DNA of 35,531 nt, from positions 1 to 35,531 of the forward strand of contig JAJZWS010000030.1 of assembly GCA_021846565.1 (NCBI GenBank), read 5' to 3'. Within the stretch, counting starts at the first letter, position 1, and every line of letters begins with the position of its first letter. The notes under the pieces were generated by a model. That model had not been told where the DNA came from. It worked only from the letters and a program-made list of their open reading frames with translations, and ran no database searches. Origin of the DNA: Bacillota bacterium (GTDB lineage Bacteria; Bacillota; Sulfobacillia; Sulfobacillales; JAIMBI01). A program made the position numbers and the translations under genes. Shown here in pieces: positions 19,550 through 32,156 of the stretch.

Positions 19550-19601
19550 GGGTGCAGCAGGAGTCAGCAGTCGCCAGAGAGAACCGGGAGGAGGAATTTC
19601 G

Positions 19602-19784
19602 GTGGCGCTCTTGATGGGGAGCCTGGTGCACGACCCACGCCGGCCGGAGGAGCCCCGCGAGGGGGTGGTCATCGCGGTCACGCGGCATCCCATGTGCCTG
19701 GCGCGTCTCTTGACCATCGCGTGGAAGGACACGGGCACCCTCGAGGACCTGGACGAACAGGAATTCGGCGAGATGGACGACTAA
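19602..19784 (+). CDS. Small hypothetical protein (60 aa)
   Basis: A GTG at 19602 is preceded by GGGAGGAGGA (19586-19595) at 6-base spacing, one of the strongest ribosome binding sites in the window. The product starts MALLMGSLVHDPRRPEEPRE and ends with a very acidic tail (EDLDEQEFGEMDD). The middle contains VVIAVTRHPMCLARLLTIAWKD. It is soluble by composition. It is divergent from the aldo/keto reductase and has no neighbour downstream for 1.6 kb. I do not recognise the family. The acidic tail could suit a protein- or nucleic-acid-binding accessory role, but that is speculation. Confidence 0.55.
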   Translation: MALLMGSLVHDPRRPEEPREGVVIAVTRHPMCLARLLTIAWKDTGTLEDLDEQEFGEMDD

Positions 19785-20759
19785 GGTCATTCGCCATGCG
19801 CAGGGCCGCCGACGGCCTCGATGGAGGCTGGGAATGGCTCGCCCGGGGGGATGAGGCATCGGCGCGTGGCGGCCGGCGCAGCTCAGCCGTCGCGGCGGTT
19901 GCCGACGTCTCTGGACCCACTTGCGGGCTGTCGCGATGAATGCGCACTCCGTCTCAGCCGCCTGGCAGGACCACCCGCATCGCTCGTGTCGGTCGGCGTC
20001 CGAGGTGGCGAGTGCCGGCGAGGTTCAGATTCCCGAAGCATTGGAGGCTTGGCTACGCTGGTCCATAAGGATGCCCTCTCGGCGCTCGCGGCCGATTGGT
20101 ACGCCACCCCTTCGGCACTTATGCGGCGGTTGCGCTGACGGCCGCTTGCTCATCCCCCTGGCATCTGAGTTTGGAGTACGCGCTGGCCTTCCCTCATTTG
20201 CCGCCGCAGCGGTCACCAGGACCCGCGTCACCATCGCCCCGCGGCAGGCCATGGGGGTCAAAAGGTGGGCGCTATGACTGCGAGTCCGCACCCCGGATAC
20301 CCTGACAGCCGTCGGTGACCGACATTTTTCTGACCCGGTATGCCATCAGCACCTGCTGACCCTCGCGCCACCGGTTTTTACTGAATTGAGGGCCTGGCCT
20401 CTCCGTGGCGATCAACCCGCGGCAGGATCCTAAAGCGGGGCGGGAATTTCTTGCGCCGTTCTGCCCCCAAGGAGGCTGCCACCTACGGACCCCTTGAGGA
20501 TGGCGAGCTGGGCGGCTCGGGCCGTCGCATCTCCTCGGTTGTCTGCGACACGAAAGCGGCGCCCCGGGTCAGGGAGGCCGCGCCGGTCCCGGGGATCGTG
20601 CGGGTACCGGTCTCGCGGGTGGGGCGGCACGCTCATCGTCCAGCGGACTGGCCAGCCGCCGTTCCAGGTTGGTGAATGCCGCAAGAACTGAGGGGCTTCA
20701 AACGCGCGGTGGCGGCGGCCGCCACCAGCTCCAGCAGGTGGGGCGGGACCGGCCCGTGT

Positions 20760-21390
20760 TCACGGACCATGGCCTGCAGACCGGCCACGAGTAGTCCCGG
20801 GGCATGCCCCGGCTACCCTCCCAAACAACGAAGTCCGATCGGTGGTAGCCTTCTTTCCAATCACGCTCACGTAGTAATACACGAGCTTGTGATGACCGCC
20901 GTCCGGCGCCCAGGTGACGGTCACGACCTATTGCCGATTCTTCAGAAAGACGCACGTGAGGTTTTGGCTCACCAGCGCGCCTGCTAGCCCATTCGACGAG
21001 ACACCGAGCCCCAACGTCGACGAGCCAAGAAAACGCAAGGCCTTCCGGTACCATCTGGACACGGGTTCCGTCACCGGCACTCGGAATCCAGCCTCGCCTT
21101 GGCGAACTCCGACGCCATCGCTGTGGCGAACCCGGTACCGGCAGGAAAGGGGCTTTGTGTTTTTACGGCGGCGCGGGGGACGGGTAGCACGATGCTACTC
21201 GTGGATGGCAAGCCTCTGGACACTCCGAGACACCCCCGAGGGATACAGTAACGTTGGTTGTCCCGGCGGACGACTCCCCTTGGGGTCGTCAACACCCACC
21301 CAGTGGGTGCCGCCACGGCAATCACCGCCACCGCCAAGGCCAGTCGGAGCGCCCTCAGCCGGCGCCCCTAAAGTCAGCCCCCCTCGGAAC
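20760..21390 (-). pseudogene. Possible decayed gene for a secreted protein
   Basis: Read leftward, a signal-peptide-like start occurs near 21355 (RLRALRLALAVAVIAVAAP). Protein-like sequence then continues across frame changes and stops: VPVTEPVSRWYRKALRFLG, LVSQNLTCVFLKNRQ, an in-frame TAG at 20928-20930, then VVTVTWAPDGGHHKLVYYYV and SVIGKKATTDRT. Alternating Val/Thr and Tyr-rich strands suggest a beta-sandwich exported protein. At least one frameshift and one stop separate the pieces, and no clear start codon remains. The identification is tentative; the pieces could be chance. Confidence 0.25.
20791..20816. repeat. GTAG-footed perfect palindrome (REP-like hairpin)
   Basis: The core CCGGGGCATGCCCCGG (20797-20812) is a perfect 16-bp palindrome. 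It is flanked by GTAG (20791-20794) and its complement CTAC (20813-20816), with a two-base bulge. A GTAG tetranucleotide at the foot of a GC-rich hairpin is the hallmark of REP elements mobilised by RAYT transposases. Only one copy is visible here and there is no T run for a terminator. Confidence 0.35.
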
Positions 21391-21436
21391 GCATCTGACC
21401 CGGTGGGCGGTAGGGCGCCCCGTGCATCGACCTGGC

Positions 21437-22006
21437 TTATGGCGCGGGCCGCTGGACATCGACCTTGGAGGCCACGATGACGCACTGATCCGGACCCGTG
21501 CGAATTTCCACCGCCCAGAGGCTCGGGTGGGTGAGCCACCGGTCGCGAAGCGCGTCGGGCTGGCCCACCCACTCGGCGGGCCACTTTTCTTTCGGCGTCA
21601 GGTCGTCCAGGAGAACCAGCCCGCCTGGAATCATTGCGCCGATCACCGTGTCCACGGCGTCATGCTTGGCCATGTTGGCATCGACAAAGATGAGGCCAAA
21701 GGGGCCGTGCGGCAGCGCCTCCGCCCAATCCCCGTGGACCACCACCACGCCAGGCACATCCCGCATCAGCGCGCGAACGCCGCGGGCCCGCTCGGGATCC
21801 GACTCGGCGGTCACCACGCGCACGCGGGCGGTGCTGGCCAGCCAGGCGGTGCCCACCCCGAACCCGCTCCCAATCTCCAGAATGGGCGCGTCCCGCATAC
21901 TGCTGGCCAAGACCGCCAGCAACTGTCCCGTCTCGTCGGTGCACGACTGGTGGAAGCCCGCCCTGCGGGCCAGCGCCTGCGCCTCGGTCACCTTCAGCGG
22001 AGTCAC
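21437..22006 (-). CDS. Class I SAM-dependent O-methyltransferase
   Basis: The 189-residue protein carries the SAM-binding motif I ILEIGSGFGVGTAWLA (residues 42-57). An acidic ribose-binding residue follows in VVTAESDPERARG, then FVDANMAKHD and LVLLDDLTPKEKW. The order and spacing match the small COG4122 (catechol O-methyltransferase-like) group, which usually binds a divalent metal through the DAN region. The GTG start at 22006 follows AGGAGGAGG by 4 bases. It is the last gene of the leftward run and lies 84 bases after the preceding gene. The methyl acceptor is unknown. Confidence 0.85.
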   Translation of the reverse strand: MTPLKVTEAQALARRAGFHQSCTDETGQLLAVLASSMRDAPILEIGSGFGVGTAWLASTARVRVVTAESDPERARGVRALMRDVPGVVVVHGDWAEALPHGPFGLIFVDANMAKHDAVDTVIGAMIPGGLVLLDDLTPKEKWPAEWVGQPDALRDRWLTHPSLWAVEIRTGPDQCVIVASKVDVQRPAP

Positions 22007-22090
22007 CGTGACCTCCTCCTCTACTGCTGCTCACCTTAGTCACCCTAGGATGACGTTCCCGCCGCCGCAACTCGTGCTTCTGTCTGGCGG

Positions 22091-22828
22091 TCAGCCCGGC
22101 GGCGGGCCCAGCGGCTGGCGGGTGCCGAGCGAGGAGGGCAGAAACACGGGCGTGGGGGACCGCCACGCCGCGTGTCGACCGTCCAAGACGTCCAGCGCCT
22201 CATACACCCATCCGGCCTGCGCTTGAGCCGCCAGTAGCTCGGCCGGCACGGCGGTCCCGGAGCCCGGATCCCACGACCGCGGTGCGACCGCTCTCAGCTG
22301 ACCGACCGTGGACAGCACCGTTATCATATTGTGGGCATGCCCGTTGGCCAGAGCGGTCAGAATCCGCCGGGCATGGGACGGGGCCAGATACGTCACCGCG
22401 GTCCCACCCTGGCGCGACCACGGATAACGGCCGGTGACCCACACATACGCCACATGGTGGATGAAGCCCACCCGCGGGATGCCGTCAGCGATGTAGGCCA
22501 CCCACACCGTCGGCACCGCGTAGCGGCCGGGGTGCAGGGCGCGCACCGAAACGTCCAGCGCATGCCCGCCCTCCTGGATGGCCCCGACCGCCATCCCCGG
22601 GGGAGCGGCGGACAGGAGTCCCGCCGCTGCGATGGGCGGTCCGCCCGCCAGCGCCACATCGTGCACGGTGCGCCCCCGCCCCACCGCCAGGGACATTTGC
22701 TGAGAAAAGTTCGAGACCGCCCAGTACGGCCCCGTGACGCTCGCAATACCCACCATGGCCACAACGACCGCCGCTCCCCACCCCCCACGCTTCCACGTCT
22801 TTTTCGGCATCCTCGGCATCCTCGGCAT
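22091..22828 (-). CDS. Membrane-anchored protein of unknown function
   Basis: The 245-residue product starts MPRMPRMPKKTWKRGGWGAA, a positively charged N-terminus followed by one hydrophobic helix (AVVVAMVGIASVTGPYW, about residues 20-37). The rest is probably outside the cell. That domain is rich in Val/Ala/Gly with aromatic patches (VGFIHHVAYVWVTGRYPW) and no cysteine motif. ATG 22828 is the first of three in-frame ATGs created by a 9-bp tandem repeat; GGGGGGAGGG sits 8 bases before it. The frame is open further upstream to 22969, but that extension is Arg/Pro-rich and follows the preceding gene too closely. It sits just downstream of an ECF-type sigma factor and another membrane protein. 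No family recognised. Confidence 0.6.
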   Translation of the reverse strand: MPRMPRMPKKTWKRGGWGAAVVVAMVGIASVTGPYWAVSNFSQQMSLAVGRGRTVHDVALAGGPPIAAAGLLSAAPPGMAVGAIQEGGHALDVSVRALHPGRYAVPTVWVAYIADGIPRVGFIHHVAYVWVTGRYPWSRQGGTAVTYLAPSHARRILTALANGHAHNMITVLSTVGQLRAVAPRSWDPGSGTAVPAELLAAQAQAGWVYEALDVLDGRHAAWRSPTPVFLPSSLGTRQPLGPPPG

Positions 22829-22832
22829 CCTC
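22806..22832. repeat. Tandem repeat, 3 x 9 bp, over a translation start
   Basis: GGCATCCTC occurs three times without mismatch (lower-strand reading GAGGATGCC). Each copy provides one in-frame ATG preceded by GAGG for the membrane protein at 22091-22828. Confidence 0.85.
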
Positions 22833-22955
22833 CGGACCCTCCCCCCTGTCAGCGGCCTTCGTCTCAGCGTTCCCGGCGCTCTCAGCGTGTTTCGCCCTAC
22901 GGGACGCCGGGCGGGCCGGACGCACGCGGCGCCACAGCGCTGGGTCCGTAGTGGC

Positions 22956-23825
22956 TCAGCGGAAACCACCCGCCCCCCCAGTCAAAGGGCAGGGGTGGCC
23001 GGTGGTTGCGTCCACCAGCCACCCCTGCCCGCTGGGCGCTTCCACCAAATACACGGGACCCTCACGCGGAAGCGTCCACCATCCTTCCAGGCTTCCCGGT
23101 CCCGGCCACATGAACACTTCCGCGGCAGCTCGCGAAATGACCGTGTAGCGGACGGCGGTTGGGTCCGCCACGACGGCCGATGGCACGGCGGGCCACCAGG
23201 GCCGTGCCCACAAGCGCCGGGACCAGTTGCGGGGCCACCACACAGGACGGGCCCCCAGTTGTTTGACGGATGCCGTGGCCAAGCCGTCCACCACCCCCTC
23301 GCCCAAAACCGTCCCCGTGCGGGAGAGTACCTCCACGACCATGCCGGTCGTGCGTGACCGTGACGCGTATCGGATCCGGATCCCAGATTCCCTGGACCCG
23401 ACGTCTAAACTGCTGCGCGGCACCCCGCTGGGCACGCGGCCGGCAACCCATATGGTCGTCACCGTCTGCCCGAGATTTATCGCGCCGGCCAATGAGACCC
23501 CCGTAGTGCGCACCACTTGGGAAAGCGGCCCGCGCGTCCAGTAGACGGACCGGGGCGCTGCGCTGGAGGCGGTAGCCAGGGCAGCCGCCAACTGCTGCAC
23601 GTTGGTCCCCAGGGCCGGCGTCACCGGTCCGGGGGGCAGGGCGGTCAGCCGGGAGGGAGCCGCCCGGCGGGGCACGACCGCCTGCCCGTGGGTCAGCGGC
23701 CAGAGCCCTGCCAGCACGAGGAGACTCGCGACGCCCAGCGCCCAGGCACGCGGGCGAGCCCGCGGGGGCCGCGCCGGAGTCTCCGCCTGCATCTGAATGC
23801 GCTCCCACAACGGATCGTCGCGCAA
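22956..23825 (-). CDS. Membrane-anchored protein next to an ECF sigma factor, possible sigma-regulator
   Basis: The 289-residue product has a short charged N-terminus (RDDPLWERIQMQAET), a single membrane helix (WALGVASLLVLAGLWPL, about residues 27-43) and an external domain of about 240 residues. The topology and position directly after an ECF sigma factor fit a membrane anti-sigma factor or a co-regulated sensor. However, there is no zinc-binding HxxxCxxC motif. The TTG at 23825 has only a weak ribosome binding site. An in-frame stop (TAA) lies 8 codons upstream, so the true start may be lost or differ. A strong 18-bp hairpin lies over its last codons (22987-23030). Family not recognised. 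Confidence 0.55.
   Translation of the reverse strand: MRDDPLWERIQMQAETPARPPRARPRAWALGVASLLVLAGLWPLTHGQAVVPRRAAPSRLTALPPGPVTPALGTNVQQLAAALATASSAAPRSVYWTRGPLSQVVRTTGVSLAGAINLGQTVTTIWVAGRVPSGVPRSSLDVGSRESGIRIRYASRSRTTGMVVEVLSRTGTVLGEGVVDGLATASVKQLGARPVWWPRNWSRRLWARPWWPAVPSAVVADPTAVRYTVISRAAAEVFMWPGPGSLEGWWTLPREGPVYLVEAPSGQGWLVDATTGHPCPLTGGAGGFR
22987..23030. other. Long hairpin inside the 3' end of a coding region
   Basis: GGGCAGGGGTGGC (22987-22999) pairs with GCCACCCCTGCCC (23018-23030). Inside it GGTGG (23001-23005) pairs with CCACC (23012-23016), with one mismatch between the two stems. The loop is 6 bases. It covers codons about 10 to 25 from the stop at 22956. No T run follows on either strand, so it is more likely an mRNA-stabilising or pausing structure than a terminator. 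Confidence 0.5.
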
Positions 23826-23858
23826 GGCGGCATGGAGACGCGCTTAGCTGGTCGTCCG

Positions 23859-24372
23859 CTATTGGTCTCGCCCCCCTGCTTGCTCCATGGCGGTACGCAG
23901 CGCCTGGAGTGCGATGAAGCCGTGCCCGGGCCGCTTCCGGGCTGATCCCCAGCGCGTCTGCCATCTCCGCCGCGCTTTTGTCCAACTGGAACCGCTGACG
24001 CAGGACAGCTTGCTGCTCAGGGCTCAACCCCGCTACCAGCGACCGGAGCCACAACCGATCCACGGTGGCGGCGGCCCAGTCGGATGCCGTGCCGGATGCA
24101 GCCTCACCCAGCGCATGGGTGGCGTGCAGGTCGCGCGCCTGCCGCCTCACCGAGTCCAGATAGAGGCGGCGTGCCACGACCACGAGCCATCGCCGCGCCT
24201 GCGCCGCATGGCGGAAGGGGGGCGCCGTCTCATGCGCGCGGACAAACACGTCCGCCACCACGTCCTCTGCCCAGGCAGGGTCCCGGGTCCAGGCGAGGGC
24301 CTGCCGATACACGGCCAGCGCATGCTGGTTGTACAACCCTTCCAGGTCCGCAGGGATCCCTCCCGTCGACAT
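23859..24372 (-). CDS. ECF-type RNA polymerase sigma factor, frameshifted at its C-terminus
   Basis: The frame from ATG 24372 encodes region 2 (EDVVADVFVRAHETAPPF, RRWLVVVARRLYLDSVRRQA) and region 4 (LSPEQQAVLRQRF, EMADALGISPEAARARLHR), as in extracytoplasmic-function sigma factors. After LHR the frame turns into unrelated sequence. A +1 shift near 23910 restores the expected ending ALQALRTAMEQAGGRDQ and a TAG at 23859-23861, total about 170 residues. In the unshifted frame the reading continues wrongly to 23062 over the next gene. The ATG follows TAGGTGA. YhaN lies 77 bases upstream. The shift falls after the region 4 helix-turn-helix, so activity may survive; a sequencing error is equally possible. 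Confidence 0.75.
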
Positions 24373-24449
24373 CGCTCACCTACTTGACGATCGGTGGGCC
24401 TAGAGTGTGACGCGTAGGTCGGCAGGGTGACGAGGGCATGGGGCAGGAG

Positions 24450-29458: not shown

Positions 29459-30589
29459 CTACTTCAGGACGTCGACGGTGTTGGTGTTGTCGTTGGTGAA
29501 GAACACCTTAAGGCGCCCGTGGGACACGGCGGCCGCCACGCCGAACAGCGCCGACCCCGCCCCGGTGCGGGGATTGACGGGCGTGCGGTCCAAAACCTTC
29601 TGGCCCACCACCCGAGCGCGCTTCCGACCGAGGCGCAGTTCCACCAAGTGGTTGTTGCCCTGGTTGACCACCAGCAGATCCCCGTTCAGCGGGTCAATCG
29701 TGATGCCCGCCGGCGCCTTTAGGGCGCCGCCCTGGTACACTAGGCGGCCCTGTCCCTGGTTCGGGGTGTTGGGCCCGTTCCAGTAGAACGCGCGAATCGA
29801 GTTGTCGGCTGCATCCGTCACATACACCATGTGCGTCGCGGGGTCGTACACCATGCCCTGGGGCCCCATGACGGTCCCGGCCGTGTTGCCCGCGTGGGCC
29901 AAGCCGGACCCGATAACCGCGACCTCGGTGTCTGTACTGAACGACGGGGGCGAGAACCCGTACATCGCGTCGATGGTCCCGGACAACCCGTTGGTTACCA
30001 GGAAAGCCGGCGCCGTCGGGTTGGGCACAAACACCTGGCCCCAGGGCCCGGCGAACTGCGAACGCGCGATCACACTCCCGCCATTGGGAAACACCTGCCC
30101 CTGGGGGGTCAGGACCATCACGTTGCCGTTGGTGCCCTCGGTCCCGAAGTTTGCGATCCACACGGGTCCCTTGGGACTCACGGCCAGGGCCACCGGGCCG
30201 GCGGCAGCGGTGGTCCAGGTCGAGACGGCCCCGGTCTGGGGGTTGATCGCCTCGATGGTGGACCCGGCCCCGTTCACGCCCGCCTGATTGTTGAAGTTGG
30301 ACACCAGCAGGTCGCCGTAGTACGGGTTGGGACTCGTCGCCGTGCCGGCAAAGGTGTCCCACACCACGCCATAGGGATTCGTGTCGCCATTGGCGGGATT
30401 GACGGTGCTGGCCACCACGTCAATCTGGTGCAGCGCACCGATGCCCGACCGGGCCACGGGCGCTGGGGCAGCGTGCGCCGCCGAAGCCCCCCTCGATACG
30501 CTCAAGGCTCCCATGGCGGCGAACAGGACCATCGATCCAATAACCCACGGACGCCGATTCCGCCTCCTCGTCAACTGCATCAACTGCAT
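29459..30589 (-). CDS. Secreted beta-propeller (NHL/YncE-like, TIGR03118-type) protein
   Basis: The 376-residue product begins MQLMQLTRRRNRRPW, then a hydrophobic core (VIGSMVLFAAMGALSV) and ASAAHAAP, a clear Sec signal peptide with cleavage near residue 40. The rest consists of repeated strands such as PYYGDLLVSNFNNQAG, GPVWIANFGTEG, GMVYDPATHMVYVTDAAD and GITIDPLNGDLLVVNQGNN. These are NHL/YncE-like propeller blades, about six in all. It should act outside the cell, in binding or scaffold functions. ATG 30589 follows GAGGAGG by 6 bases; a 9-bp tandem repeat supplies a second in-frame ATG. It is divergent from an ECF sigma/anti-sigma pair, which may control it. Confidence 0.75.
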   Translation of the reverse strand: MQLMQLTRRRNRRPWVIGSMVLFAAMGALSVSRGASAAHAAPAPVARSGIGALHQIDVVASTVNPANGDTNPYGVVWDTFAGTATSPNPYYGDLLVSNFNNQAGVNGAGSTIEAINPQTGAVSTWTTAAAGPVALAVSPKGPVWIANFGTEGTNGNVMVLTPQGQVFPNGGSVIARSQFAGPWGQVFVPNPTAPAFLVTNGLSGTIDAMYGFSPPSFSTDTEVAVIGSGLAHAGNTAGTVMGPQGMVYDPATHMVYVTDAADNSIRAFYWNGPNTPNQGQGRLVYQGGALKAPAGITIDPLNGDLLVVNQGNNHLVELRLGRKRARVVGQKVLDRTPVNPRTGAGSALFGVAAAVSHGRLKVFFTNDNTNTVDVLK

Positions 30590-30885: not shown

Positions 30886-31488
30886 GTGCAAGAGAGTGAT
30901 GTTAAAACCATGGCCCACCCTCGGGACGACGAGACGCTGTTGGCCGCCGTCCCGCGGGAACCGGACGGCATGGCGGAGCTGTACGCGCGCTGGGCGCCGC
31001 GCCTCGGCGCCATGATGCGGACGGCCGGCATTCCGGCGGCCGACATCCCGGACGTGCTGCAAGGGGTGTTTGTCGAGATATGGCGGCACGCCGGGCGCTT
31101 TGACGCTCGGCGCGGCTCCGCCGGCGCCTGGATGACTCAAATCGCGCGGCATCGCACCATTGATTTTTTGCGCCGCCATCGTCCCGCGGACGAATGGCGG
31201 GACGAGGGGGCGCCGCTCCCCGACCCGGACGACCGCCTGGTGGTGCAAGCCGGACTCAGGGCGCTCGATCCCCGGGAGCGGCGCTTGGTGGAGCTGGCGT
31301 ATTACTCCGGATTCAGTCAGCGAGAAATCGCTCAGCTCTGGGGGGTGCCGCTGGGCACGATCAAGACCTGGTCGCGTCGGGCGCTGCAAAAGATGCGGCG
31401 GGCGGTAACCGATGAGGGGGCAGACGACCCACAGCCGGACAGTCATGGACCGTCGCGCACGAACCGAAGGAGGCGACCAAGCCCGTGA
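30886..31488 (+). CDS. ECF-family RNA polymerase sigma factor
   Basis: The product of about 200 residues contains sigma region 2 (DVLQGVFVEIWRHAGRFDAR, WMTQIARHRTIDFLRRHR) and region 4 (LDPRERRLVELAYYSGFSQR, EIAQLWGVPLGTIKTWSRRA). Regions 1 and 3 are absent, as expected for extracytoplasmic-function factors of the SigK-like kind that pair with RskA anti-sigmas. The start is uncertain: GTG 30886 or ATG 30910 (MAHPRDDETLL), neither with a strong site; ATG 30910 fits the family better. The stop overlaps the anti-sigma start by 4 bases (GTGA). A near-consensus housekeeping promoter lies upstream. Confidence 0.9.
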   Translation: MQESDVKTMAHPRDDETLLAAVPREPDGMAELYARWAPRLGAMMRTAGIPAADIPDVLQGVFVEIWRHAGRFDARRGSAGAWMTQIARHRTIDFLRRHRPADEWRDEGAPLPDPDDRLVVQAGLRALDPRERRLVELAYYSGFSQREIAQLWGVPLGTIKTWSRRALQKMRRAVTDEGADDPQPDSHGPSRTNRRRRPSP

Positions 31489-32156
31489 AACATCCGAGCG
31501 ACCTAGACCTGATGGCGGCCGCCTCGGGCCTTCGCCCGACGACCGATCCGCTGGTGCGGCACGTGGCCACCTGCCATGCGTGCCGCGCACGGGCCCATGA
31601 CCTCACGGCGATGATGCCGTCCGCCGCCCCGGTCATCGAGCCTCCCCGCTGGTCCCACGTGGCGGACCGCGTGGGAGCGTTCCCGCGGCGGACCACCATC
31701 CGCCGAGCCGCGTGGGCGGCTCTGGCCCTGATGCTGGTGCTGGGCGTGTGGGGCCCGAAATTGGCGGGCGGCCCGGCCCCATGGGGGCCCCAGGCACTGT
31801 CGGTGCTGACGATGGGGCGGACCGTGACCCTCAGGGCGGTCCAAGCTCCCCACGGCGCCGTGCACCTCCGGTGGGATCCGGTCAGCGGGTGGGCGCTTAT
31901 AACCTCCAACACGCTGCCGCCCCTTCCAGCCGGGACCGTGTACGAACTGTGGTGGATCCACGGAACTCAGCACGTCCGGGCGGCTATCTTCCGCCCCGGA
32001 CCCGGGGGGCGCCTCTCGATGTGGGTCCGCTCCCAACGAAACTTTCGCGGCGTCACCGCGGCGGGCATCACCCGGGAACCCGCACCGGGCCTGGCCGCGC
32101 CGACCGCGCCCCCCCAGTACTATGGGAGCCTCGGCGGGCCCCCGGCCAAGTCCTGA
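31485..32156 (+). CDS. Anti-sigma factor, RskA-like
   Basis: The 223-residue protein has a cytoplasmic zinc-binding motif HxxxCxxC (His26, Cys30, Cys33), one membrane helix (about residues 75-90, AAWAALALMLVLGVWG) and an external RskA-type domain (GWALITSNTLPPLPAGTVYE, LWWIHGTQHVRAAIF). Such proteins hold the partner sigma factor at the membrane until regulated proteolysis frees it. The GTG start overlaps the sigma stop, so synthesis is coupled and near-equimolar. The RskA domain is the presumed sensor; the signal is unknown. Confidence 0.88.
   Translation: MKHPSDLDLMAAASGLRPTTDPLVRHVATCHACRARAHDLTAMMPSAAPVIEPPRWSHVADRVGAFPRRTTIRRAAWAALALMLVLGVWGPKLAGGPAPWGPQALSVLTMGRTVTLRAVQAPHGAVHLRWDPVSGWALITSNTLPPLPAGTVYELWWIHGTQHVRAAIFRPGPGGRLSMWVRSQRNFRGVTAAGITREPAPGLAAPTAPPQYYGSLGGPPAKS

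Follow-up and report, generated by a model that had tools for sequence, protein, structure and literature searches.

Probable remains of a lineage-restricted ECF sigma factor operon with two orphan membrane proteins in a bacterium of the Sulfobacillales

The window (the whole stretch of DNA analysed, 35,531 nucleotides) carries on its minus strand a gene for an ECF sigma factor followed by two genes, g2 and g3, for membrane proteins. The presence and the order of the three genes agree with the preliminary description, whereas its sigma factor turned out not to be a single intact frame. The sigma gene starts at 24372, and its frame f0 (23911..24372, 154 residues) encodes region 2 and most of region 4, with Pfam matches to Sigma70_r2 (3.2e-11) and Sigma70_r4_2 (6.1e-9), a TIGR02937 score of 62.1 bits (cut-off 42.9) and a codon signal in this frame. 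With Pfam r2, r4_2 and r4 and TIGR02937 all above their cut-offs, the gene has the regions 2 and 4, in about 170 residues, that characterize the ECF sigma-70 family; what it lacks is one unbroken frame through region 4. Codon usage, scored with a model whose training set was 17 genes of the window (8821 codons) and expressed as z-scores against base shuffles, gives 7.4 for sigma, 6.9 for g2 and 8.1 for g3 (measured from 22819). Sigma, g2 and g3 are not chance ORFs but genes that encode proteins or did so until recently.

The frame of the sigma gene is disrupted within region 4, at about 23911 (~23910-23913). In f0 the region 4 match breaks off at residue 154, which corresponds to position 49 of the 54 in the profile; the ORF itself continues through g2, in a different frame from that gene, to 23062, for a total of 436 residues. 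The remainder of region 4 lies in frame f1 (23859..23912, minus strand) and ends at a TAG stop (23861-23859). A peptide spanning both frames extends the Sigma70_r4_2 match to position 54 and raises its score from 35.8 to 42.8 bits, with the r4 score rising from 27 to 39 bits, and a sliding codon scan follows the f0 signal until about 23931 and finds f1 best from 23960 to 23871. The coding look of both frames either side of the switch would also be expected were they joined by programmed frameshifting, coupling sigma to the expression of g2, but the site has neither a slippery run nor a stop codon and g2 would need a separate solution for the shift, so that we regard this mechanism as highly improbable.

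The second gene, g2 (22956..23825, minus strand), encodes a protein with a short, Arg-rich cytoplasmic tail, a single hydropathy peak of at least 1.5 near the N-terminus (TM at residue 27) and an orphan external domain. Its N-terminus, RDDPLWERIQMQ, relies on a TTG start at 23825 that lies just 3' of an in-frame TAA; this stop closes the frame a few codons ahead of the TTG, which is the sole start upstream of the tail. The tail of the ORF so defined is 26 residues long, and would be reduced to ~15 residues by the alternative start at ATG 23792, which lies behind GGGAG. We infer that g2 originally began further upstream, adjoining the sigma stop, and that the frame change in sigma and the closed frame of g2 represent two small slips in GC runs. 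An internal repeat in g2 was considered and ruled out, 321 of 1000 shuffles scoring as well.

Both lesions could instead be assembly or sequencing errors in an intact and working operon, with g2 a zinc-free, short-tailed anti-sigma factor and g3 a co-sensor. As the assembly is a draft in 134 contigs, the frame change may be an error, and whether it is real or an error is the main uncertainty of a reading by decay. The codon signal is good in sigma, g2 and g3, and the sequence just upstream of the g2 TTG still resembles protein in that frame, interrupted by a single TAA. On the other side, there are two separate lesions within ~80 bases, whereas neighbouring genes are uninterrupted, and we hold an intact operon to be possible but doubtful.

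The third gene, g3 (22091..22819, minus strand), was annotated as an ORF from 22969 to 22091. A start at ATG 22819 or 22810 is more likely than the GTG at 22969, the part between GTG and ATG having a z-score of -1.9. At the probable start a threefold tandem ATGCCGAGG-like repeat (22808-22832, minus strand) offers three possible ATG starts, each behind GAGG. The protein has, like g2, one hydropathy peak of at least 1.5, near the N-terminus (TM at residue 17), followed by an orphan external domain. The HxxxCxxC motif is absent from both proteins, and these results uphold the earlier view of g2 and g3 as single-helix proteins with no zinc motif. Their external domains were also described as unrecognised, and so they remain: neither protein matches any Pfam family at E<=10 (zf-HC2 and RskA_C included) or any NCBIfam model, and a PDB search with the two gave no relative above noise. 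Single-sequence AlphaFold models were too poor for use (mean pLDDT 41.3 for g2 and 32.8 for g3), the g2 model placing a helix at tail residues 6-15 at low confidence. Alignment of the external parts of g2 and g3 gives a score equalled by 22 of 1000 shuffles, which is suggestive of a domain in common. On that footing, the external domains of the two would form a novel pair of related sensors, with a minimal anti-sigma tail, free of zinc, on g2; the ECF cassette would be a recent acquisition whose expression persists in this species. We give this proposal little credence.

In each of the three available same-genus genomes (G001, G002 and G003) the cassette is either missing or deleted. The G002 contig aligns to the window in three blocks at 88-91% identity with two pieces missing. 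The first deletion (21986..24134, junction 21985|24135) removes 2.1 kb comprising the methyltransferase start, g3, g2 and the C-terminal part of sigma, is flanked at both ends by the short repeat GCGCCTG, and leaves a sigma stub fused to a methyltransferase stub; the second removes 20134-21616 (junction 20133|21617). The sigma stub carries two additional small indels, although indels of 1-2 bases are weak evidence in this contig, which belongs to a Bacillota MAG with a stated coverage of 2.5. The methyltransferase concerned is a SAM-dependent enzyme encoded next to g3 (21437..22006, minus strand; Methyltransf_24, 1.3e-7) and is broken in both G001 and G002: in G002 the relic lies in two frames, and in G001 a relic with two TGA codons stands between sbcC and the aldo/keto reductase. 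In G003, 44 bp take the place of window positions 19787-24448, between sbcC and the block adjoining the reductase. That the locus has decayed in G002 and G001 too speaks against an intact operon in the window, while the deletion, rather than point decay, of most of the block in G002 speaks for one.

The interval that holds the cassette is unstable and lies between conserved genes. Two transposon relics are found in it, both within a block missing from G002: a fragment at 20404..20454 (plus strand) that matches DNA overlapping the end of an rve transposase (G002:C134), and what is left of a transposition-type ATPase gene (AAA_22) at 20722..20813 (plus strand) with 84% DNA identity to G002:C91, whose parent gene matches AAA_22 at 6.4e-23; the relic shows an internal stop in tblastx. 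The extra 1.3 kb past the methyltransferase contains neither a tRNA nor an Rfam element, and a promoter and terminator scan gave nothing useful. At the reductase end, a small ORF (19560-19784, plus strand) ending LEDLDEQEFGEMDD adjoins the aldo/keto reductase and is conserved in G002 and G003; it has no Pfam match.

Beyond the genus, relatives of g2 and g3 were sought in several collections. None of g2 was found among 60 relatives, two weak matches (G017 and G039, E 0.005) being judged non-homologous as they reflect only proline and TM similarity, one to an HTH protein and the other to a membrane-anchored protein that is unrelated, and none was added by an order-wide search (42 genomes including the own genome) or by the genome_contigs collection. 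Matches of g2 to the sigma next genes of two further loci (L015 and L021), both of which encode proteins with the zinc motif (ZAS), were limited to the surroundings of the TM and were also rejected. For g3, the 60 relatives gave only weak matches in G026 and G058 (E 2.9e-4 and 0.002, spanning 41-54 residues), and it is absent from 397 other genomes of the phylum. Plasmids and viral contigs contain neither gene. Sigma alone has a close relative, the broken copy in G002. The arrangement sigma-g2-g3 is thus kept together in none of the three same-genus genomes, with a scar in G002; this genome alone among the relatives preserves traces of the locus, and there g2 and g3 are deleted. The sigma frame is broken there as in the window. 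The grouping of the three genes would have been undermined by g2 or g3 occurring without the sigma gene or belonging to a known unrelated family, and neither was seen.

A protein of this layout next to a sigma gene is not peculiar to the locus. The own genome has 28 Sigma70_r2 matches (27 above cut-off). Of these 28 loci, 11 have as their next ORF a protein with one anchor and no ZAS (L092, L095, L097, L101, L104, L105, L107, L108, L113, L114 and L115), and two have a ZAS protein there (L096 and L106). Among the 11, Pfam marks the L105 protein as RsgI-like, and a second hydrophobic peak occurs in that of L097; for the g2 locus itself (L102) the next ORF taken in the count is that of g3. Relatives and own genome together yielded 47 sigma ORFs, or 39 after eight duplicates (including both G002 stub copies) were dropped, and their next genes comprise 10 ZAS proteins, 21 TM ORFs without ZAS, some of which appear to be wrong-frame or multi-TM, and eight cases with no TM ORF in view. 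These counts indicate that zinc-free one-helix neighbours are ordinary here, and they do not support the suggestion that the three genes form a distinct module. They bear as well on a further alternative, that g2 and g3 are secreted or membrane orphans unrelated to sigma, whose place behind a dead sigma gene, in an interval rich in IS sequences, is a coincidence. In its favour, the two have no homologues in the searched collections, but their tight same-strand spacing and N-terminal single helix match other ECF loci of the own genome, and we consider a chance association unlikely.

Many of these zinc-free neighbours of ECF genes share a short N-domain of ~55 residues with the motif DDxLREW...FDRxRW, followed by one TM. 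Examples in the own genome (G000) are at C12:25719-25883 (L095), C82:11907-12074 (L107), C41:61090-61251 (L104), C22:41802-41960 (L097) and C79:12070-12219 (L113). Leave-one-out scoring over 18 members placed 14 above all 100 of their own shuffles and four not. The alignment and profile A1 was built from 12 of the 18 members, leaving out six. Matches to it occur in 22 of the order's 42 genomes, a count that takes in the own genome and the other A1 source genomes, and in four of 299 sampled phylum genomes, the own genome again included. Pfam matches in the example proteins fall only on external BNR/YCF48-like parts, and no Pfam model covers the N-domain itself in the proteins scanned. The g2 tail is not detectably a member of this group by profile comparison: of 1000 shuffles in each case, 159 reach the score of the tail in the ORF, a result in keeping with g2 being an unrelated orphan, and 290 reach that of the tail read across frames. 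An earlier profile of 15 N-parts likewise missed the g2 ORF among 487 window ORFs.

In architecture g2 nonetheless resembles the zinc-free anti-sigma-like A1 proteins of the order, as it follows an ECF sigma gene and has a short Arg-rich cytoplasmic N-part and one TM, after which the A1-type proteins have a variable external domain. It differs in its shorter tail, in the external domain and in having no profile match above shuffles. The layout of an ECF sigma factor followed by a one-TM protein is also that of RskA-type class I systems, one of which lies in the window (ECF 30910-31488; anti-sigma 31485-32156, with a ZAS motif and RskA_C at 3e-13); g2 and g3 have neither feature. An NHL-repeat protein (29459-30580) is encoded beside this second ECF/RskA pair (30910-32156), on the opposite strand. 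The very short cytoplasmic part of g2 precedes a membrane helix, as does that of CnrY. Class II anti-sigma domains are defined by a length under 50 residues and two helices that bind sigma-4 and sigma-2. CnrY is such a protein (<50 residues, two helices; PMC7406223), and the likeness of g2 to it is one of length; the first of two possible helices is out of frame in g2. Passages of the same source describe zinc-free class I anti-sigma factors and set aside anti-sigma domains under 50 residues as possible class II (PMC7406223).

That g2 acted like a short anti-sigma factor can reasonably be inferred from its position and topology. The proposal of an atypical anti-sigma factor accompanied by a further membrane protein accordingly fits the gene order, the topology and the missing zinc motif, while the partnership itself is a matter of interpretation: sigma and g2 were probably partners, with g2 the former anti-sigma factor, and g3 is a possible co-sensor. 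As judged from the architecture, g2 would have held sigma at the membrane via its very short cytoplasmic tail before the single helix; an envelope signal would have been sensed by the external domain of g2, possibly together with g3, and release of sigma would then have turned on the operon and its targets.

Taken together, the break in the sigma frame, the closed g2 frame, the absence or deletion in three same-genus genomes and the transposon relics suggest that the cassette is decaying. We therefore favour the view that a lineage-restricted ECF sigma operon survives here only as remains, probably in decay and no longer a working module. The clear coding signal in g2 and g3 implies that such decay, if real, is recent. 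The locus illustrates how an ECF cassette can be lost piecemeal at a transposon-scarred site and cautions that an open frame, however long, need not be an intact gene where the DNA is GC-rich. Of more use is a by-product of the analysis, the zinc-free anti-sigma-like N-domain found in 22 of the order's 42 genomes.
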